Assembly (NCBI RefSeq): GCF_011043735.1
Contig: NZ_JAAKGV010000001.1
Location: forward strand, 62,001 to 126,000
Source: Methylobacterium sp. DB0501
GTDB lineage: Bacteria > Pseudomonadota > Alphaproteobacteria > Rhizobiales > Beijerinckiaceae
DNA: 64,000 nt
Direction of reading: 5' to 3'
The first letter of the stretch is position 1. Each line of letters starts with the position of its first letter. The position numbers and the translations under genes are program-made. Shown here piece by piece: positions 50,582-58,707 of this stretch. The notes beneath the pieces were generated by a model. That model was not told the origin of the DNA, searched no databases, and was given only the letters and a program-made list of their open reading frames with translations.

Positions 50582-50602
50582 CTGTATGACATCGTCATAC
50601 AG
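50582..50602. promoter_or_regulatory. Operator palindrome upstream of parD
   Basis: CTGTATGAC and GTCATACAG are exact inverted 9-mers separated by ATC, 35 bp before the parD ATG, with a partial further half-site (ATGATACGATG) next to it. This is what a ribbon-helix-helix antitoxin would bind for autoregulation. Confidence 0.65.
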
Positions 50603-50637
50603 CATGATACGATGAGGCGTGGAACGGAGGCGCCTCG

Positions 50638-50913
50638 ATGAGAAGCAGCAAGCCAGTCACCGTCACCTTGGGCGAGATGCAGGAGAAGGTGGAGGCGCGC
50701 GTCCGATCGGGGGCCTACGCATCGGTCAGCGAGGTCGTCCGGGCGGGTTTACGCGCCCTCGATCGGGAAGAAGCAGCGCTCGACGCCGTGCTCCGCCAGA
50801 AGGTGCAAGAGGCTCTGAGCGATCCGAGCCCTCCCATTCCCGCCGACCGGGTGTTCGAGGAGTTGCACGCGTATCATGCCGAACGCCTTGAGACCGCCGG
50901 CCGTGATGCGTGA
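50638..50913 (+). CDS. parD: ParD-family antitoxin
   Basis: 91 residues of the CopG/ParD ribbon-helix-helix type. The N-terminal beta strand SKPVTVTLGEM is followed by helices VEARVRSGAYASVSEVVRAG and LRALDREEAALDAVLRQKVQ. The C-terminal half (ADRVFEELHAYHAERLE) is the toxin-binding arm. GGAACGGAGG lies upstream. It overlaps the start of a parE remnant by 8 bp, the usual antitoxin-toxin arrangement, but the toxin is broken. The antitoxin itself looks intact and retains an operator. Confidence 0.88.
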   Translation: MRSSKPVTVTLGEMQEKVEARVRSGAYASVSEVVRAGLRALDREEAALDAVLRQKVQEALSDPSPPIPADRVFEELHAYHAERLETAGRDA

Positions 50914-51093
50914 GGTCGTCTTCCACCGGCTCGCTCGTGCGGACCTGTTCGACATCTACGACTACATTGAACGACAGAGCGGCCCAGTGCGCGCGGGCAA
51001 CTATCTCGGCCGTATCTGCCACAAGGACAGGTCGAGAGTCTGCGCATCCTCTATGCCGGCCGTGATGTCAAAGCCAGCCAAGTCCCACACTGA
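50906..51093 (+). pseudogene. parE: Decayed parE toxin gene
   Basis: ATG 50906 opens a ParE-like N-terminus (MREVVFHRLARADLFDIYDY, then GPVRAGNYLGRI). After about 37 codons it jumps, in another frame, to the normal ParE C-terminus VESLRILYAGRDVKASQVPH, ending at TGA 51091-51093. About 45-50 central codons expected from a ~95-100-residue toxin are missing and the join is frameshifted. This looks like an internal deletion that inactivated the toxin while leaving parD. Confidence 0.78.
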
Positions 51094-51094
51094 T

Positions 51095-51136
51095 CCAACG
51101 GCCCGAGACGCTGACGCATCTTGGGCCGTTGGTATT
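51095..51136 (+). terminator. Intrinsic terminator after the parDE remnant
   Basis: A 14-bp stem (CCAACGGCCCGAGA with 51119-51132, one G-T pair) and a 10-nt loop, followed by TATTATTA. It directly follows the remnant stop codon and also lies at the 3' end of the convergent rhodanese gene. Confidence 0.7.
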
Positions 51137-51137
51137 A

Positions 51138-51554
51138 TTAGTCCGCGGCTTGCGAGAGGCTGAAACCCTCGTCCACCCACCCGGTGATCCCCCCGATCAT
51201 CACCTTCACCGGCAAGCCGAGTTCGGCCAGATGCAGGGCGGCCTTGTCGGCGCCGTTGCAATGCGGGCCGGCGCAATAGACCACGAACAGGGTGCCTTGG
51301 GGCCACTCGGCCATGCGCCGGGGCGTCATCTTGCCCCGCGGCAGGGTGAGGGCGCCGGGGACGTGGCCCCGCGCGTAGAGGGCCGGCCCGCGCACGTCGA
51401 GGAGCACGAAGCCAGGTTCTCCCGTCGTCCCATCCGCCTGCGCGAAGGCGGCGTGCACGTCGGCGCAATCGGTCTCGAAGGCGAGGCGCCGCGCGTAATG
51501 GGCCGCGACCTCGGCGGCGGGGGCGGGCGGGACGGCGGTGACGGGGTTCGGCAT
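51138..51554 (-). CDS. Rhodanese-like domain protein
   Basis: 138 residues forming a single rhodanese domain: FVLLDVRGPALYARGHVPGA, then the active-site loop VVYCAGPHCNGADKAALHLA with the catalytic cysteine, and IGGITGWVDEGF at the C-terminus. Such proteins transfer sulfane sulfur, or use the Cys for other redox chemistry. It is divergent from a GlxA/FtrA-type regulator, an arrangement that suggests regulation by it. Confidence 0.9.
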   Translation of the reverse strand: MPNPVTAVPPAPAAEVAAHYARRLAFETDCADVHAAFAQADGTTGEPGFVLLDVRGPALYARGHVPGALTLPRGKMTPRRMAEWPQGTLFVVYCAGPHCNGADKAALHLAELGLPVKVMIGGITGWVDEGFSLSQAAD

Positions 51555-51671
51555 GACGGCTTGGCTCTCCTTGCGTCGGCCCCGCCCTTTGAGCGGTGCG
51601 CCGAGCCGGCCTATCCTGCGCCCTCCCCCCTCCGCCCGAGACCGGGCCGCCTGCCGTTCCGCGTCGAGATC

Positions 51672-52667
51672 GTGCCAAAAGCCTCCGCCTTCCCGAGCAC
51701 CCCGTCCGGTCCCCGCGTCGCGGTGCTGGCCTATGACGGCCTGTGCACCTTCGAGTTCGGTGTCGCCTACGAGGTGTTCGGGCTGCCGCGGCCGGAGGCC
51801 GGCCCGCTCTGGTACCGCTACGCGGTCTGCGCGGCGGAGCCCGGGCCGTTGCGGGCCGGCGGCGGCCTCACGGTGGCGGTCGAGGGCGGGCTGGAGGTCC
51901 TGGAGGAGGCCGACCTGATCGTCGTGCCGGGCTGGCGGGCGATCGACGCGCCGGTCCCGCCGGACCTCGTCCGGGCCCTGCGCGATGCCCATGCCGGCGG
52001 CGCCCGGCTGATGTCGCTGTGCTCAGGCCTCGCGGTCCTGGCGGCGACCGGGCTCCTCGACGGACGGACGGCCACGACCCACTGGCGCTACGCGGCGGCG
52101 ATCGCGGCGCGCCACCCGGCCATCGTCCTCGATCCGGGCGTGCTCTACGTCGACGAGGGCCGGATCCTGACCGCCGCCGGCAGCGCCGCCGGCATCGACC
52201 TGTGCCTCCACGTGGTGCGCGGCGATTTCGGGCCGGACCTCGCCAACCGGGTCGCGCGCCGCCTCGTCGTGCCGCCGCACCGGGAGGGCGGCCAGGCCCA
52301 GTTCATCGAGGCGCCGGTCCTGCGCGAGCGCGAGGCGGCCCGCCTCGGGCCGGCGATCGATGCGATGCGGGCGGGCCTGCACGAAGACCGACCGCTCGCC
52401 ACGATGGCCCGACTCGCCGGGATGAGCCTGCGCACCTTCCAGCGCCGCTTCATCGCCGCGACCGGCCTGCCGCCGGGCGAGTGGATCATCGCCGAGCGGC
52501 TGCGCCTCGCCCGGGAGATGCTGGAACGTCCGGGACGGGCGTCGCTCGCCGAGATCGCCGCGGCGAGCGGCTTCCGCAATCCGGCCGGCCTGCGCCACCA
52601 CTTCCGCAGCCGCCTCGGCACCAGCCCGGCCGCCTACCGGCGCAGCTTCGCCGGGCGCCGGCCCTGA
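51672..52667 (+). CDS. GlxA/FtrA-type transcriptional regulator (DJ-1/PfpI domain plus AraC helix-turn-helix)
   Basis: 331 residues from GTG 51672. An N-terminal DJ-1/PfpI-like domain (~12-185; VAVLAYDGLCTFEFGVAYEV, nucleophile-type Cys in LMSLCSGLAVLAATGLLDGR) is followed by an AraC DNA-binding domain (~225-325; ATMARLAGMSLRTFQRRFIA and ASGFRNPAGLRHHFRSRLGT). The domain order is that of GlxA/FtrA regulators. It is divergent from the rhodanese gene, whose promoter lies in the shared 117-bp gap. Ligand unknown. Confidence 0.9.
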   Translation: MPKASAFPSTPSGPRVAVLAYDGLCTFEFGVAYEVFGLPRPEAGPLWYRYAVCAAEPGPLRAGGGLTVAVEGGLEVLEEADLIVVPGWRAIDAPVPPDLVRALRDAHAGGARLMSLCSGLAVLAATGLLDGRTATTHWRYAAAIAARHPAIVLDPGVLYVDEGRILTAAGSAAGIDLCLHVVRGDFGPDLANRVARRLVVPPHREGGQAQFIEAPVLREREAARLGPAIDAMRAGLHEDRPLATMARLAGMSLRTFQRRFIAATGLPPGEWIIAERLRLAREMLERPGRASLAEIAAASGFRNPAGLRHHFRSRLGTSPAAYRRSFAGRRP

Positions 52668-52798
52668 CCGGCGCCGATCCACCCCTGCGTCATCCGCTTC
52701 GATCCTGGTTGTGCCGCAGGAACTCATACGAAATTCGACCGACTGCTTCGCAATGCGGATGTCGGCTCCGCTCAGGCGCCGCGCGGGCCGGTGATACC

Positions 52799-52852
52799 AT
52801 TTCCGATCGATCGCTTGGCGATGGCCGCGCCATCGCTTTCGCGATGCGGAAT
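52799..52852 (+). repeat. Structured palindromic element, copy A
   Basis: A 54-bp element with outer inverted ends (ATTTCCG...CGGAAT) and a central stem GCGATGGC/GCCATCGC around loop CGC. It aligns with the reverse complement of 63865-63921 at 43 of 52 positions (my own count). The central stem differs by a compensated pair. Confidence 0.7.
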
Positions 52853-53019
52853 GCGCATGACGCACACCGGTCGGATGCCGTGCCCGACGCCGGCCGCCTC
52901 GGCAACACGTCCCCTGCCCTTGCGCGACGCGACACAGGGCATGCGGATGCAGGGGCAACATCGTTCGAAGGCGGTGTGGCTGCCTGGCGCAGAATGACGA
53001 CCGGGCGGATCTGCTTGCC

Positions 53020-53345
53020 GTAAAGGAATATGATTTTCATTCAACAATATTAAAATATATAGATATATTTAATTTTATATATAAAATATACAGTGATATT
53101 TATCAGATGATAAAAATATCATTCAGGATATATTTTTAATCCTCCTCTCGAATTTCGATCAACTCCAAAATCCCGGATCTCTGGGCTGGGCATCGAAAAT
53201 TCGCGATGGGTCAACGACCTCATCGATCGCAGGACTGCCCGAGATCGAAATCGATGCATCGGCATCCCGGGCCGTGGGTACCAGACATATATATCAAGGA
53301 GTTATGATATATTAATGAAAATATGCTAACCAAATTACGTAGAGT
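53020..53345. other. AT-rich island upstream of the chemoreceptor
   Basis: In a G/C-dominated window this stretch is overwhelmingly A/T; 53041-53100 has only 6 G/C in 60. It contains inverted repeats such as TGATATTT/AAATATCA (53094-53121) and AAATATATAGATATATTT, and an AAGGAG (53298-53303) ahead of very short ORFs. A more G/C-rich patch (53140-53280) interrupts it. The whole 692-bp gap 52668-53359 has no convincing gene. Confidence 0.75.
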
Positions 53346-53359
53346 TAAACGACATAGGA

Positions 53360-55390
53360 ATGCTTCTGGTGCTCGATGCCCTCAAAGGTCGGATCATTGC
53401 GGTCGCTCTGTTACCTTGCATCGCCCTGGCGACCATGTCCGGAATCGTGGTGTCCGGACTGATCACGCAGCGTGGCGAGATGGCGCGCGTCGAGGAATTG
53501 GCGGGCCTCGCGACCCGTATCGGCGCCTTCGTGCACGAGGCGCAACGCGAACGTGCAGCCTCCGTCGTCTTCCTCGGTCAGAAGGAGGGGCAGTTCGCGG
53601 ACCAGCTCAAGGCGCAACGCCTGCGCACGGACCAGCAGCTCCGCCGGCTCACCGACTCCCTCGACGATCCCGTGCTCGCCCCCCACAGGAAGGGCATCGC
53701 GGAGGGACTGAACCAGATCGCCACTCGGCGCCGCGCCATCGATGCACTGGATGCGGACGCCGCACAGACCGCCGCGTTCTACACCGCGCTCATCGCCCAG
53801 AACCTCGACGCCATGCCGGAGATGTCCCGCATGGTCGGCGAGGCGGATATCCGCGGTCGTATCCAGGCCCTCTCCACATTCATCACTTTCAAGGAACTGG
53901 CCGGGCAGGAGCGGGCGCTCGGCGCGATCGCCTTCTCGGACGGACGGCTCACCCAAGCCAAGTTCGGCCAGTTCCTGATCGGCTGGGGCAAGCAGCAAAG
54001 CCAGGAAGAGCGGCTCCGGTCGATGGCGACGCCCGAACAGGTGGCGCTACTCGGCGCGGTGGAGGGCAGTGCGGCCGCCCGTGAAGTCGACAAGCTCCGC
54101 ACGCTCGTCTTCGAGACGGCTCCCGACAAGCCGATCGCCTTCCGGGATGCACCGCTCTGGTTCCAGGTCACGACCCAGCGGATCGATGGTCTCAAGACCG
54201 TCGAGGACCGCATGAATGCCGATCTCATCGGTGCGGCGTCCCGCCTGCGGGCCGATGCCGAACGGTCCTACGTTCTCTGGCTCGGCGCCGGGCTCGCGAC
54301 GCTTCTGCTCTCCATCGGATTCGCCGTGGCACTCGGCAGCGCCATCGCCCGGCCGCTGACCCGGATCGCCGACATCCTGGGAGCGATCGGCCGCGGCGAG
54401 GAGGGGGTCGTGATTCCCCGGGACGGTCCCCGCGAGGTGCGCCTGCTGTCGCAAGCGGCGGAGGTCTTCCGCGACAGCGTCGCCGAAGGGCGGCAGAACC
54501 GCATCCGGCAGGAACGGCAGGCTGCCGAGGTCCAGGCGGCACAGCGAGAGGCCATGCTGAGCTTGGCCGACAGGTTCGAGGCGGCGGTCGGCGGCATCGT
54601 CGGCATGGTGTCGTCCTCGGCGACCGAGTTGCAGGCCACCGCCCAGCAGCTCACGTCCACGGCCACCGAGACCGCCTCGCAATCGGCCACGGTGGCCGAT
54701 GCCGCCGAGGAGGCCGCCGCCAACGTCGACACCGCCGCGGCCGCCGCCGAGGAACTCGGGGCCTCCGTGCAGGAGATCGGCCGGCAGGTCGCCGGCTCGG
54801 CGGACCTCGCCCGGATGGCGGTCGGCGAGGCCGACCAGACCTCTACCCTGGTGCAGGCGCTGAGCCAGAATGCGACGCGCATCGGCGACATGGTCGGCAT
54901 GATCTCCTCGATCGCCAGCCAGACCAACCTGCTGGCGCTCAACGCCACCATCGAGGCGGCCCGGGCCGGGGCGGCGGGGCGCGGCTTCGCCGTGGTGGCC
55001 AGCGAGGTGAAGGCGCTCGCCGAGCAGACCGCGCGAACGACCGAGGAGATCGGGCGTCAGGTCGGCGAGGTTCAGGGCGTGACGGATCAGGCCGTCGCGG
55101 CGATCGGCGGCATCACCGACCGGATCCGCCAGATCGACGGCGTGGCCACCTCGATCGCTGCGGCGGTCGAGCAGCAGGGCGCGGCGACGCAGGAGATCGT
55201 GCGCAACGTGGCCCAGGCCTCGGCCGGCACCACGGAGGTGACCGGCACCATCACCGGCTTGGCGCAGGCCTCGGCGGAAACGGGGAGCGCAGCCAGCCAG
55301 GTCCTGTCGGCCGCCTCGGAGCTGTCGCGCCAGTCCGAGCATCTCGGTGCGGAGGTCGCCCGCTTCCTGGCGACCGTGCGCGCCGCCTGA
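53360..55390 (+). CDS. Methyl-accepting chemotaxis protein with NIT (nitrate/nitrite-sensing) domain
   Basis: 676 residues. TM1 is ~10-34. A periplasmic all-helical NIT-type sensor (~45-290) has [20 protein letters not shown] and [22 protein letters not shown]2 is ~303-325 ([20 protein letters not shown]). A HAMP follows with [19 protein letters not shown], then a signalling domain whose hairpin tip is [20 protein letters not shown]. There is no C-terminal CheR-binding pentapeptide. The start has only TAGGA directly adjacent; an in-frame stop at 53327 rules out a longer N-terminus. Predicted ligand: nitrate or nitrite. Confidence 0.92.
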
Positions 55391-55399
55391 CGGGATGAG

Positions 55400-55433
55400 G
55401 GAGGGCGCGCTCCCGGGCTCTCGCGCGCCCTCC
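55400..55433. terminator. Hairpin between convergent chemoreceptor and hybrid kinase
   Basis: An 11-bp perfect stem GGAGGGCGCGC/GCGCGCCCTCC with a 12-nt loop, 10 bp after the chemoreceptor stop. No T-tract. Confidence 0.55.
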
Positions 55434-55540
55434 GGCGCGGCGTCGGCTTCGCCCGCGCGATCGACACTTCCTGCGAAAGCGGTTGCGCCGGCTACCACCG
55501 CGAGAGGTCCCCGGCATCGACAGCCCGGCCGATGTCGCCC

Positions 55541-58015
55541 CTATCCCACCGGCGCGGTCCCCGTCCGCCGCTGCCCGATCGCGGTGGCGAGCATGCGCGA
55601 GAGCTGCTCGGCCGAGTACGGCTTATGCAGCAGCGGAAAGCCGTGCGACCCCTCCTGCGCCAGGACGTGGCTGTAGCCGGAGGTGAGCAGCACCGGCAGG
55701 TCGGGATGGCGCCGGCGCAGGGCCTTGGCGAGTTCGATGCCGCCCATGCCGGGCATCACCACGTCGGAGAACACCGCGTCGTAAGCGGCATCCTGCCCGA
55801 GCTCGTCGAGGGCCGCCTCGGCATTCGTGACCCAGGTGGTGACGTAGCCCAGGTCGTTGAGGATCTGCGCCGCGAAGCGGCCGACGCCGACATTGTCTTC
55901 GACGAGCAGCACCCGCTGGCCGGCCCGGGCCGGGGCCATGCCCTCGTCGGCCGGCGCCGCCCGGCCTTCGTCGGCGGGCGCCGCCGCCTCGGGCAGGTAG
56001 AGGATGAAGGTCGAGCCCTCCCCCGGCCGGCTCGTCACGTCGACGTCGCCGCCGGACTGCTTGGCGAAGCCGAAGACCTGACTCAAGCCCAGCCCCGTGC
56101 CCTTGCCGACCTCCTTGGTGGTGAAGAACGGCTCGAAGATCTTGTCGATCACCGCCGGCGTCATGCCGGTGCCGGTATCGGTGAGCGAGATCGCCGCGAA
56201 GGGGCCCCTGGCGGCGGCGTGGCCGCGGATCTCGGGCTTGGGTGCGCCGCAGGCGACCGAGAGCGTCAGCATCCCCTCGCCCTCCATCGCGTCGCGGGCA
56301 TTGACCGCCATGTTGATGAGCGCGGTCTCGAACTGGCTCAGGTCCGCCCGCACGAAGCACGGCCGGTCGGGCGCCTGGGTCACCATGCGGATGCGGGCGC
56401 CCGTCACGGTGTCGAGCATATCGGCCACGCCCTGGAGGCGGGCGACGACGTCGAACACCTCCGGCGCCAGGGCCTGGCGGCGGGCGAAGGCGAGGAGCTG
56501 GCCGGTGAGCTTGGCGGCGCGGTCCACCGTGTCGGAGACGGCGTCGAGGTAGCGCGCCTTGCGCGCCTCCGGCAGTTCCGGCCGGCGCAGGAAGTCGACC
56601 GAGGAGCGGATGATGGTGAGCAGGTTGTTGAAGTCGTGGGCGACGCCGCCGGTCAGCTGGCCCACCGCCTCCATCTTCTGCGACTGGCGCAAGGCCTCCT
56701 CGGCCTGGACCAGGCGCTGCGCCCGCTCGCGCTGCTCGGTCACGTCGCGGGCGACGCAGTACAGGTTGCCCTCGAACGGCACCGCCCGCCACGACAGGGT
56801 GCGGTAGCCGCCGTCCCGGGTGCGGAACCGGTTCTCGAACGACAGGGTCGGCTCGCCGGAGCCGAGCCGCCGGATCTCCTCCCGGGTCCGGTCCTGGTCG
56901 TCCGGGTGCTCGAGCCAGGCGGAGCTGCGCCCGACCACCTCGTCGGGCTGCCAGCCGAGCGTCGCGGTCCAGGCCGGGTTGACGCTGCGCCAGACGCCGT
57001 CGGCATCGGCGACGCCGAGCATGTCGCGGCTCACCTGCCAGATCCGGTCGCGCTCGGCGGTGCGGGCGGCGACCTGGCGCTCGAGGGTCTCGTTGAGGCC
57101 GCGCAGGGCCTCCTCGAGCCGGCGCTGGGCGGTGATGTCGTTGAACAGCACTGCGACGTGGCGCGCCTCCGGCACACCGACCCGGAAGGCGTGGACCTCG
57201 TACCAGCGCTCGGCCAGCGACCGGGCCGGCTGGATGAAGCGCGCCGACTCGCCGGTCAGCGCCACCCGGCCGTAGATGTCGAACCAGTGCTGCTCGTGGT
57301 CGGGGGCGAGGTCGCGCATCCAGCGCCCCGCCGCCGCGTCGAGGCCGGTATGGCGCGCGAAGGCCGGGTTCACCTCCAGGAAGCGGTAATCCTCCGCCCG
57401 GCCGTCGTCGGAGAACGCCATGCCGATGACGCAGAAGCCGGCATCGATCGCCTCGAACAGCGTGCGGTAGCGCGCCTCGCTGGACCGCAGGGCCTCCTCG
57501 GCCCGGCGCCGGGCGGTGATGTCGATGATGAACTCGAAGCCGGTGCCGTCGTCGAGGCGGGTCGCCGCGCACAGGCCCCAGAACCGCGAGCCGTCCTTGC
57601 GCAGGTACTCGCGCTCGGTCGATTCCGAGCGCCCCCGCGCCTGCAGCTCGGCCATGACGTGGTGCGAGGTGGCCTGCCATTCCGGCGGCACCAGGCTGGC
57701 GCCGGTGAGGCGGCCGCGCTCCAGGTCGTCGCGGTCGTAGCCGCTCATCGCCAGGAAGGCGTCGTTGGCCTCGCGCACCCGGCCGGCCATGTCGAAGACG
57801 ATCGCCCCGACGGTCTCGATGCCGAGCACGGTGCGCAGGCGCGGATCGACGAAGAGGCCGCCTGCCGGGGCGGAGAGTCCGGTCCGGGACGCGGCCGCCG
57901 CGCTCCGCGCCGCCGCGGCCTCGGCCGCCGCCCGCGCGGCTTCCGCGGCCGCCAGGGCGGCCCGCAGCCTTTCGTTCTCGGCGACGAGGTCCGGCGCCGG
58001 CCCGCGATCCGTCAT
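55541..58015 (-). CDS. Hybrid PAS sensor histidine kinase/response regulator
   Basis: 824 residues, no transmembrane segment, so cytosolic. An Ala-rich coiled coil (~10-45) is followed by three PAS domains: ~65-170 with [20 protein letters not shown], ~190-310 with [20 protein letters not shown], and ~325-445 with [20 protein letters not shown]. HisKA then has H460 ([20 protein letters not shown]), an ATPase domain follows ([26 protein letters not shown]), and a C-terminal receiver has D751 ([12 protein letters not shown]). ATG 58015 has GGGAGAGGA upstream. The output is probably phosphorelay to an unlinked partner. Confidence 0.93.
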
Positions 58016-58224
58016 TCCTCTCCCATCCCCAGGCACCGCTCCCGCGCCTCCCCCGAGGCGACGGGGGGCGCCGCCCGGGTCATATAGGGGAGGCGGCGCC
58101 GTCTCCACCCACCGGCGCCGCGGCCGTCGGCCGAGGACCCCGCTCGAGGCCGCGTTGCGGCGCGCCCGGGATGGTCGCATACCGGGATCGTGAACCCCGC
58201 CGCGGCGGGGCGCGGAGGCGAGCC

Positions 58225-58707
58225 GTGACGATCCATCCGACCCGTTGCAGCAATGCGGCCCTGCGCCGGGCGACGCGCAGCGTCGGGCAGCTCTACGACG
58301 AGGCCCTGGCGCCGAGCGGCCTGCGCACGACGCAGTACGGCCTGCTCGCGACGATCCGCGGCCTCGGCAGCCCGACCATGGGCGAGCTCGCCGAGGCGAT
58401 GGTGATGGACCTCTCCGGGCTCGCCCACACCCTCAAGCCCCTGACCCGCGACGGCTATGTCAGCGTGGTGCCCGATCCCCGGGACCGCCGGGCGCGGCGC
58501 ATCGCGCTCACGGAGTCGGGCACCGCCAAGCTGAAGGCGGCGACGCCGCTGTGGCGCGCCGCGCAGGAGCGCTTCGAGGCGGCGTTCGGGCCGGAGCGGG
58601 CGGGCCGGCTGCGGGAGCTGCTGCATGAACTGGCGCTGCCGGATTTCCGGGCGGCGTTCGATGCGGGGGCGGGCGGCCAGGATATCTCGGAGCCATCCGC
58701 GACCTGA
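58225..58707 (+). CDS. MarR family transcriptional regulator
   Basis: 160 residues from GTG 58225, with CGGAGGCGA upstream. The winged helix is seen in LRTTQYGLLATIRGLGSPTM, LAEAMVMDLSGLAHTLKPLT and the wing VSVVPDPRDRRARRIALTES. Flanking helices provide dimerisation. The start is 209 bp from the divergent hybrid kinase start. MarR proteins usually bind phenolic or other small ligands. No obvious target is next to it other than itself. Confidence 0.9.
   Translation: MTIHPTRCSNAALRRATRSVGQLYDEALAPSGLRTTQYGLLATIRGLGSPTMGELAEAMVMDLSGLAHTLKPLTRDGYVSVVPDPRDRRARRIALTESGTAKLKAATPLWRAAQERFEAAFGPERAGRLRELLHELALPDFRAAFDAGAGGQDISEPSAT

Follow-up and report, generated by a model that had tools for sequence, protein, structure and literature searches.

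An extremely AT-rich, repeat-interrupted interval upstream of a lineage-specific NIT-domain chemoreceptor gene in Methylobacterium sp. DB0501

Organization of the locus

The analyzed window is a stretch of 64,000 nt with an overall G+C content of 71.7%. A segment of 2,873 bp (52668-55540) lies in it between the stop codons of two convergent genes. The left gene (51741-52667, forward strand, with a putative start codon) was assigned by Pfam as a DJ-1/PfpI and AraC-type regulator, and the right one (55541-58180, reverse strand) as a PAS hybrid histidine kinase, which was also placed in a tree. The segment holds a dispersed repeat (repeat A, 52724-52805), two AT-rich blocks, a second dispersed repeat that is palindromic (repeat B, 53146-53283, forward strand) and a chemoreceptor gene (53360-55390, forward strand). 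The 676-aa product, a receptor of the nitrate-sensor type, carries NIT (E 1.2e-46) and MCPsignal (E 4e-28) domains in one protein, both above the Pfam cut-off, together with a signalling-tip stretch, and the downstream gene is indeed the NIT-domain methyl-accepting chemotaxis protein recognized in the first-pass annotation. A G+C-rich spacer (55391-55540) separates its stop from that of the kinase and shows only short weak matches elsewhere in the genus, the best with 49 bits. A strong hairpin without T run was predicted in the spacer near 55400-55433 and may possibly be a terminator.

The interval 53020-53345, with 35% G+C overall, had been annotated as one AT-rich island directly upstream of the chemoreceptor. 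It is in fact composed of three segments: a distal AT core of 113 bp that is rich in T-A steps (53028-53140, 13% G+C), a segment of 57% G+C with the repeat (53141-53283), and a proximal AT block (53284-53359, 28% G+C, forward strand). Only the proximal block adjoins the gene; the end of the AT core is 219 bp ahead of the start codon. The proximal block carries TTAA at 53312 (-48) and CTAACC at -34, and is most likely the promoter and leader, judged by the class-wide position of TTAA/TTTA[CT] described below. Within this block, an AAGGAG precedes a short reading frame, ATG ATA TAT TAA (53297-53316), which is possibly a chance occurrence and possibly a leader peptide.

Insertion between two convergent genes

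The region 50600-58700 was searched as DNA against 111 genomes of the genus. In the relatives, the kinase and the AraC-type gene adjoin each other in convergent orientation. A total of 15 kinase loci (L057-L071) were read, and the nine in which both stops could be measured gave stop-to-stop distances of 3, 4, 3, 4, -4, -4, 98, 65 and 4 bp. The two genes are thus separated by at most 4 bp in seven of the nine relatives and by 65 or 98 bp in the other two, against 2,873 bp in the window. The loci L061, L064, L065, L068, L069 and L071, where the AraC-type gene is unaligned beside the kinase, have no bearing on the site, and in L070, one of the seven tight sites, the alignment with the AraC-type gene is limited to roughly its final 88 bp. 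With this gene lacking or cut down to a short tail next to the kinase in L061, L064, L065, L068, L069 and L070, the junction is variable in the clade.

A phylogenetic analysis of the kinase (16 rows, midpoint-rooted, with 6 of 13 inner branches weak) placed the genome of the window, denoted G000, as sister to G106 with support of 99/99; the other G numbers denote genomes of the genus. At E 1e-20 the receptor is absent from all 14 large-genome clade-mates of this tree, four of which (G104, G105, G106, G109) were scored by elimination among the genomes listed. G031, on a long outlying branch of the kinase tree, has a different receptor, which is encoded at another genomic location and falls into a separate part of the receptor tree. 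The empty site in nine relatives, together with the receptor-less clade-mates, points to a gain specific to this lineage, with the AT-rich island within the gained DNA. A gain is the simplest account, and loss of the receptor by the clade-mates is a less probable one. The foreign or lineage-specific nature proposed for this DNA is thus borne out in its second sense, and no donor was found for it in the searches below.

The first-pass annotation had also offered an integration seam for the AT-rich DNA. The segment is an insertion, as a seam left by a recombination event would imply, but its junctions at 52668 and 55540 are G+C-rich, no obvious direct repeat was seen at them by eye, and the AT core lies well within the segment, at distances of 360 bp from the left junction and 2.4 kb from the right. 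The seam is the least credible of the explanations considered here, and we give it next to no weight.

Neither a donor nor mobile machinery, as signs of horizontal gain, was found among the genomes of the genus, plasmids, phages and five ORFs. For 52851-53145, the matches in the 111 genus genomes are short, do not exceed 46 bits and fall nearly all in the G+C-rich left part; short repeat matches in three plasmids were all that the plasmid search returned, and the phage search returned none. Five ORFs that overlap either the start or end of the receptor gene or the remainder of the segment, and that do not include the ORFs of 91, 68, 48 and 43 aa, were translated and compared with Pfam and PHROGs at E 0.1 without a match.

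Dispersed repeats in the segment

Repeat A is present in at least 33 further places of the same genome with 79-90% identity, a lower bound from 40 scored candidates, and two further repeat matches were found at 52774-52850 in the same own-genome search. Repeat B has 13 other genomic places at E < 1e-5 with 74-84% identity. Among the copies of repeat B (L009-L025), the fuller ones are about 165 bp long and bounded by inverted ends, and truncation is frequent, as read by eye. The copy in the window keeps the right terminal repeat, and its left end of about 36 bp is absent, with AT-rich DNA in its place. The many copies and the inverted terminal repeats, the latter in the fuller copies, give repeat B a MITE-like character. 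At E 1e-8, 19 of the 111 genus genomes have members of this family, all 14 clade-mates of the kinase tree among them. Judged by such matches, repeat B is native to the clade. The stretch 53090-53145 was also considered as a decayed left end of repeat B and rejected, with 980 of 1000 shuffles scoring equally high.

Distribution and phylogeny of the chemoreceptor

Receptor matches at E 1e-20 are found in 87 of the 111 genus genomes, including the one studied here. In a sample of 397 genomes across the order, eight matches were found at E 1e-60, this genome included, and all of them belong to the same genus. Among the best 80 of 559 matches, the closest relatives are at most 54% identical and other genera contribute more distant relatives of at most 34% identity.

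The receptor tree was built from 86 NIT sequences of 87 rows, with L230 dropped. It groups the window receptor with those of G007 and G053 (99/90) and then with those of G041, G020 and G022 (100/99), away from the clade of the species itself. By coordinates, G007 and G022 correspond to records of M. bullatum and M. hispanicum, respectively. The window receptor forms the longest branch of the tree (1.09), so this placement is less secure than the support values suggest. The GC3 of the first 1,080 bp of the gene is 0.84, compared with 0.91-0.95 in six flanking genes; since the 11 NIT orthologues examined range from 0.82 to 0.98, this value alone is no proof of foreign origin. We also considered whether a resident receptor had recently converted the signalling domain and rejected this, the best match in the same genome having only 80% DNA identity. 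In G053 the NIT receptor match falls into two adjacent pieces (G053:C12:349416-350500), an apparent frame break.

Composition of the AT-rich interval

A direct count confirmed the composition given in the first-pass annotation, with 6 G/C in 60 at 53041-53100. The lowest 60-mer of the locus, starting at 53031, has 5/60, and the next-lowest 60 bp of the window away from the locus has 25/60. In twenty 20-kb stretches sampled from the same genome (400,000 bases), no 60-mer with 10 or fewer G/C was found and the minimum was 13. The duplex stability minimum of the window likewise falls in the AT core. The 13/60 minimum of the sample is located at about 215-218 kb of G000:C1. The DNA there (L099 15400-17750, about 215.4-217.8 kb) is low in G+C, has small ORFs without assignment and is probably foreign cargo.

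The core could be a leftover foreign spacer or a decayed mobile element without regulatory role. Searches of the genus, plasmids and phages gave no informative homologue for it, it is located within the inserted segment, and the lowest dips of one sampled stretch also fall in low-G+C DNA with small unassigned ORFs. But the core is part of the intergenic DNA ahead of the receptor, which must contain the promoter, chemoreceptor genes here typically have AT-rich DNA in this position, and the five ORF translations gave no match in Pfam or PHROGs. We consider a functionless remnant unlikely.

Curvature, folding and other sequence signals

A bent-DNA promoter for a tightly regulated receptor was another proposal of the first-pass annotation; phased A-tracts and inverted repeats could form one. 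A/T runs of 4-5 bp do occur six times in the AT core, short inverted repeats are numerous, and the whole interval folds better than shuffles. The AA/TT phasing at 10.5 bp, on the other hand, was reached by 320 of 1000 shuffles, and its roll-signed version by 474 of 1000, in a simple model. A/T steps are in this model no more phased than in shuffled DNA, and A-tracts phased with the helical repeat, the mark of curved DNA, were not seen. The A/T inverted repeats reported for the island are present, but the longest perfect palindromic arm in the AT core, of 8 nt, was reached by 53 of 200 dinucleotide shuffles. The whole interval gave z -2.5 in DNA folding (1 of 100 shuffles as good) and z -1.8 in RNA folding (7 of 100 as good; 2 of 200 as low in a further run). 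When folded singly with RNA parameters, the three segments gave z -0.67, -0.67 and 0.03, no better than shuffles, and the fold of the whole thus reflects its patchy composition. A bent promoter is accordingly very improbable.

No terminator was found in the interval, and all Rfam matches in a search for RNA elements were below threshold. A promoter consensus scan gave five sites against 1.2 expected, a difference of little weight because the shuffles spread A/T over the whole region.

Upstream regions of NIT orthologues and other chemoreceptors

The 350 bp upstream of the gene were compared among 87 receptor loci of the genus, including the one in the window. At its minimum, the G/C count per 60 bp falls to 5 in the window, whereas the minima of the 86 other NIT loci range from 15 to 34. 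A mild dip is thus common to all 86, and the deep island is found only in the window, with no orthologue approaching it; the AT-rich stretch is not a conserved feature of orthologous loci, and such conservation would have counted against the first-pass annotation. The element TTTA[CT] is present at -130 to -20 in 64 of the 86 orthologues, with 55 of its 80 occurrences at -60 to -46, and is absent in the window.

We further examined chemoreceptors as a class in three genomes, excluding the window: the best 20 of 39 further DNA matches listed in the same genome, 20 of 46 in G105 and 20 of 28 in G041. The selection in G041 left out the NIT receptor, a partial one and lower-ranking ones. A total of 58 of these 60 were used, L284 and L295 being dropped for want of a clear start. 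Controls were other genes with an upstream gap of at least 80 bp, predicted from codon composition by a simple rule; among the control loci, L112 and L330 hold one chemoreceptor each. Chemoreceptor upstream DNA was more AT-rich than that of controls in all three genomes, with upstream-only medians of 29 versus 35 in the same genome (19 versus 163 genes, p 7.7e-5), 30 versus 36 in G105 (19 versus 75 genes, p 6.3e-4) and 27 versus 35 in G041 (20 versus 77 genes, p 2.8e-4). Minima of 24/60 or less are in clear excess in the same genome (7/19 chemoreceptors, 9/163 others) and in G041 (6/20, 7/77), and in slight excess in G105 (2/19, 4/75).

Chemoreceptor genes of this genome thus often have AT-rich upstream DNA, and two others reach 10/60, the lowest value among the 58. 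One of them, L268, has 10/60 here and 21-29/60 in nine presumed orthologues (L348-L356), in which a TTAA or TTTAC element was seen by eye near -55. The comparison with these milder orthologues indicates that recent gain of a gene is probably not required for a deep AT island to form in front of it.

These data bear on the main competing explanation, that the island is a strong case of the AT-rich DNA found upstream of chemoreceptors as a class, with silencing and foreign origin irrelevant to its composition. The bias in the three genomes and the two receptors at 10/60, one of them very AT-rich and yet probably not newly acquired, speak for it. Against it, the 5/60 of the window lies far beyond the class, in which the next of the 87 NIT loci has 15/60 and the lowest of the 58 other chemoreceptors 10/60. 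Moreover, the 113-bp core is split from the gene by the repeat and lies further upstream than the usual chemoreceptor dip, whose median centre is at -70 to -78. We regard this as a serious alternative, held with limited confidence.

TTAA occurs preferentially at -90 to -46 upstream of chemoreceptors, with 28 of 42 occurrences there for the 58 chemoreceptors and 12 of 47 for 315 controls. The pattern TTAA-N7-TTAA is that of CtrA-type promoters in front of motility genes in Alphaproteobacteria. When 7 or more of its 8 positions had to match, it was found in 15 of 58 chemoreceptors and 8 of 315 controls (shuffled mean 1.2, maximum 6). In the NIT orthologues it is hardly enriched (4 of 86, shuffled mean 2.4), and neither strand of 52968-53359 has it at this level, the best site having 6/8. 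The window receptor does not therefore show a CtrA-dependent promoter by this pattern. The TTAA and CtrA patterns were picked post hoc, with twelve expressions and five patterns counted, which makes the p values optimistic, and an unbiased k-mer scan of the chemoreceptor upstream regions revealed no strongly outstanding k-mer. The enrichment in the three genomes (L267-L326; G000, G105, G041) suggests that many receptors of the genus are controlled by a CtrA-type system. Control of chemotaxis genes by CtrA is mentioned in PMC2877005. A search of a limited literature collection returned no paper linking Methylobacterium chemoreceptor promoters with AT-rich DNA.

Putative silencing by Ros/MucR proteins

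Xenogeneic silencing by Ros/MucR proteins was also suggested in the first-pass annotation. A total of 21 Ros/MucR matches (PF05443) were found in the genome, all above the curated cut-off (L086-L093 and others), so candidate silencer proteins are encoded. The core target of these proteins is, according to PMC5693944, an A/T five-mer containing a T-A step. All-A/T five-mers with such a step number 47 in the 113-bp core and at most 4 per 113 bp in the rest of the window; the core is thus AT-rich DNA with closely spaced T-A cores. Recruitment of MucR1 rises with AT content and with a periodic-T motif, according to PMC8857273. The flexible MucR1 motif of that study, TT...G...T..........TT, was not found on either strand of 53020-53360; shuffles have 0.37 on average, and its absence is weak evidence. 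The 21 matches and the dense T-A cores together make silencing of the receptor region by MucR/Ros proteins plausible.

Interpretation and comparison with known systems

The lineage-specific presence of the segment, the position of the island inside it, its extreme composition and its interruption by a clade-native repeat are established. On balance we lean, with somewhat better than even confidence, towards a reading of the AT-rich interval as non-coding DNA that controls an acquired NIT chemoreceptor and is split by a native repeat, with a distal core that may nucleate a silencer and a composition at the extreme of a class-wide trend. The receptor would have been gained within the 2.9-kb segment between the two convergent genes. 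The proximal AT block (53284-53359) would carry the promoter, with TTAA at -48, because chemoreceptors of the genus tend to have TTAA/TTTA[CT] near this position. The distal core (53028-53140), predicted to melt easily, would be a likely nucleation site for at least one of the 21 Ros/MucR-type proteins, which would keep the acquired receptor down until it is counter-silenced. Its AT richness would be the extreme of the genus-wide trend upstream of chemoreceptors, exaggerated here because the region was acquired or has drifted. The AT core may have arrived with the gene or have been formed afterwards.

The locus is unusual but most likely not a new kind of thing, being the extreme of something ordinary, and without silencing the case is an ordinary one. 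It shows what a chemoreceptor gain can look like: the site is empty in relatives, the gene is intact, and its extremely AT-rich control region harbours a resident repeat. From the AT bias and the pattern resembling a CtrA box comes a testable idea of how a bacterium might choose which of its dozens of receptors to express. A broader and rather improbable extension is that chemoreceptors of Methylobacterium sit behind AT-rich docking sites for the expanded Ros/MucR set, where the depth of the island sets the degree of silencing and is tuned by erosion or, as in the present locus, by repeat insertion. If so, newly gained receptors would enter the genome or fall silent behind the deepest islands.

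The closest parallel is the silencing of foreign genes by MucR in Sinorhizobium fredii. As presented in PMC8857273, it shares with our case an alphaproteobacterial host, Ros/MucR proteins, AT-rich DNA before a lineage-specific gene and enrichment in T-A steps. The flexible MucR1 motif of that system is absent here. The extreme AT content is confined here to the upstream DNA, and the GC3 of the gene is only slightly lower. The Ml proteins of Mesorhizobium loti and MucR of Brucella, according to PMC5693944, recognize the A/T five-mers with a T-A step of which the 113-bp core has 47; most A/T-rich DNA would qualify by this measure, and those counted here are candidate sites. Compared with CtrA-type promoters, whose pattern is enriched in chemoreceptors of the genus, the window receptor lacks the pattern (best 6/8). 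Finally, repeat B resembles the MITEs and dispersed repeats described for Methylobacterium, being likewise short, apparently non-coding, multi-copy and bounded by inverted ends (PMC2680597), and differs in its length of about 165 bp from the MITE MiniMdi3 of that paper, which has about 400 bp.
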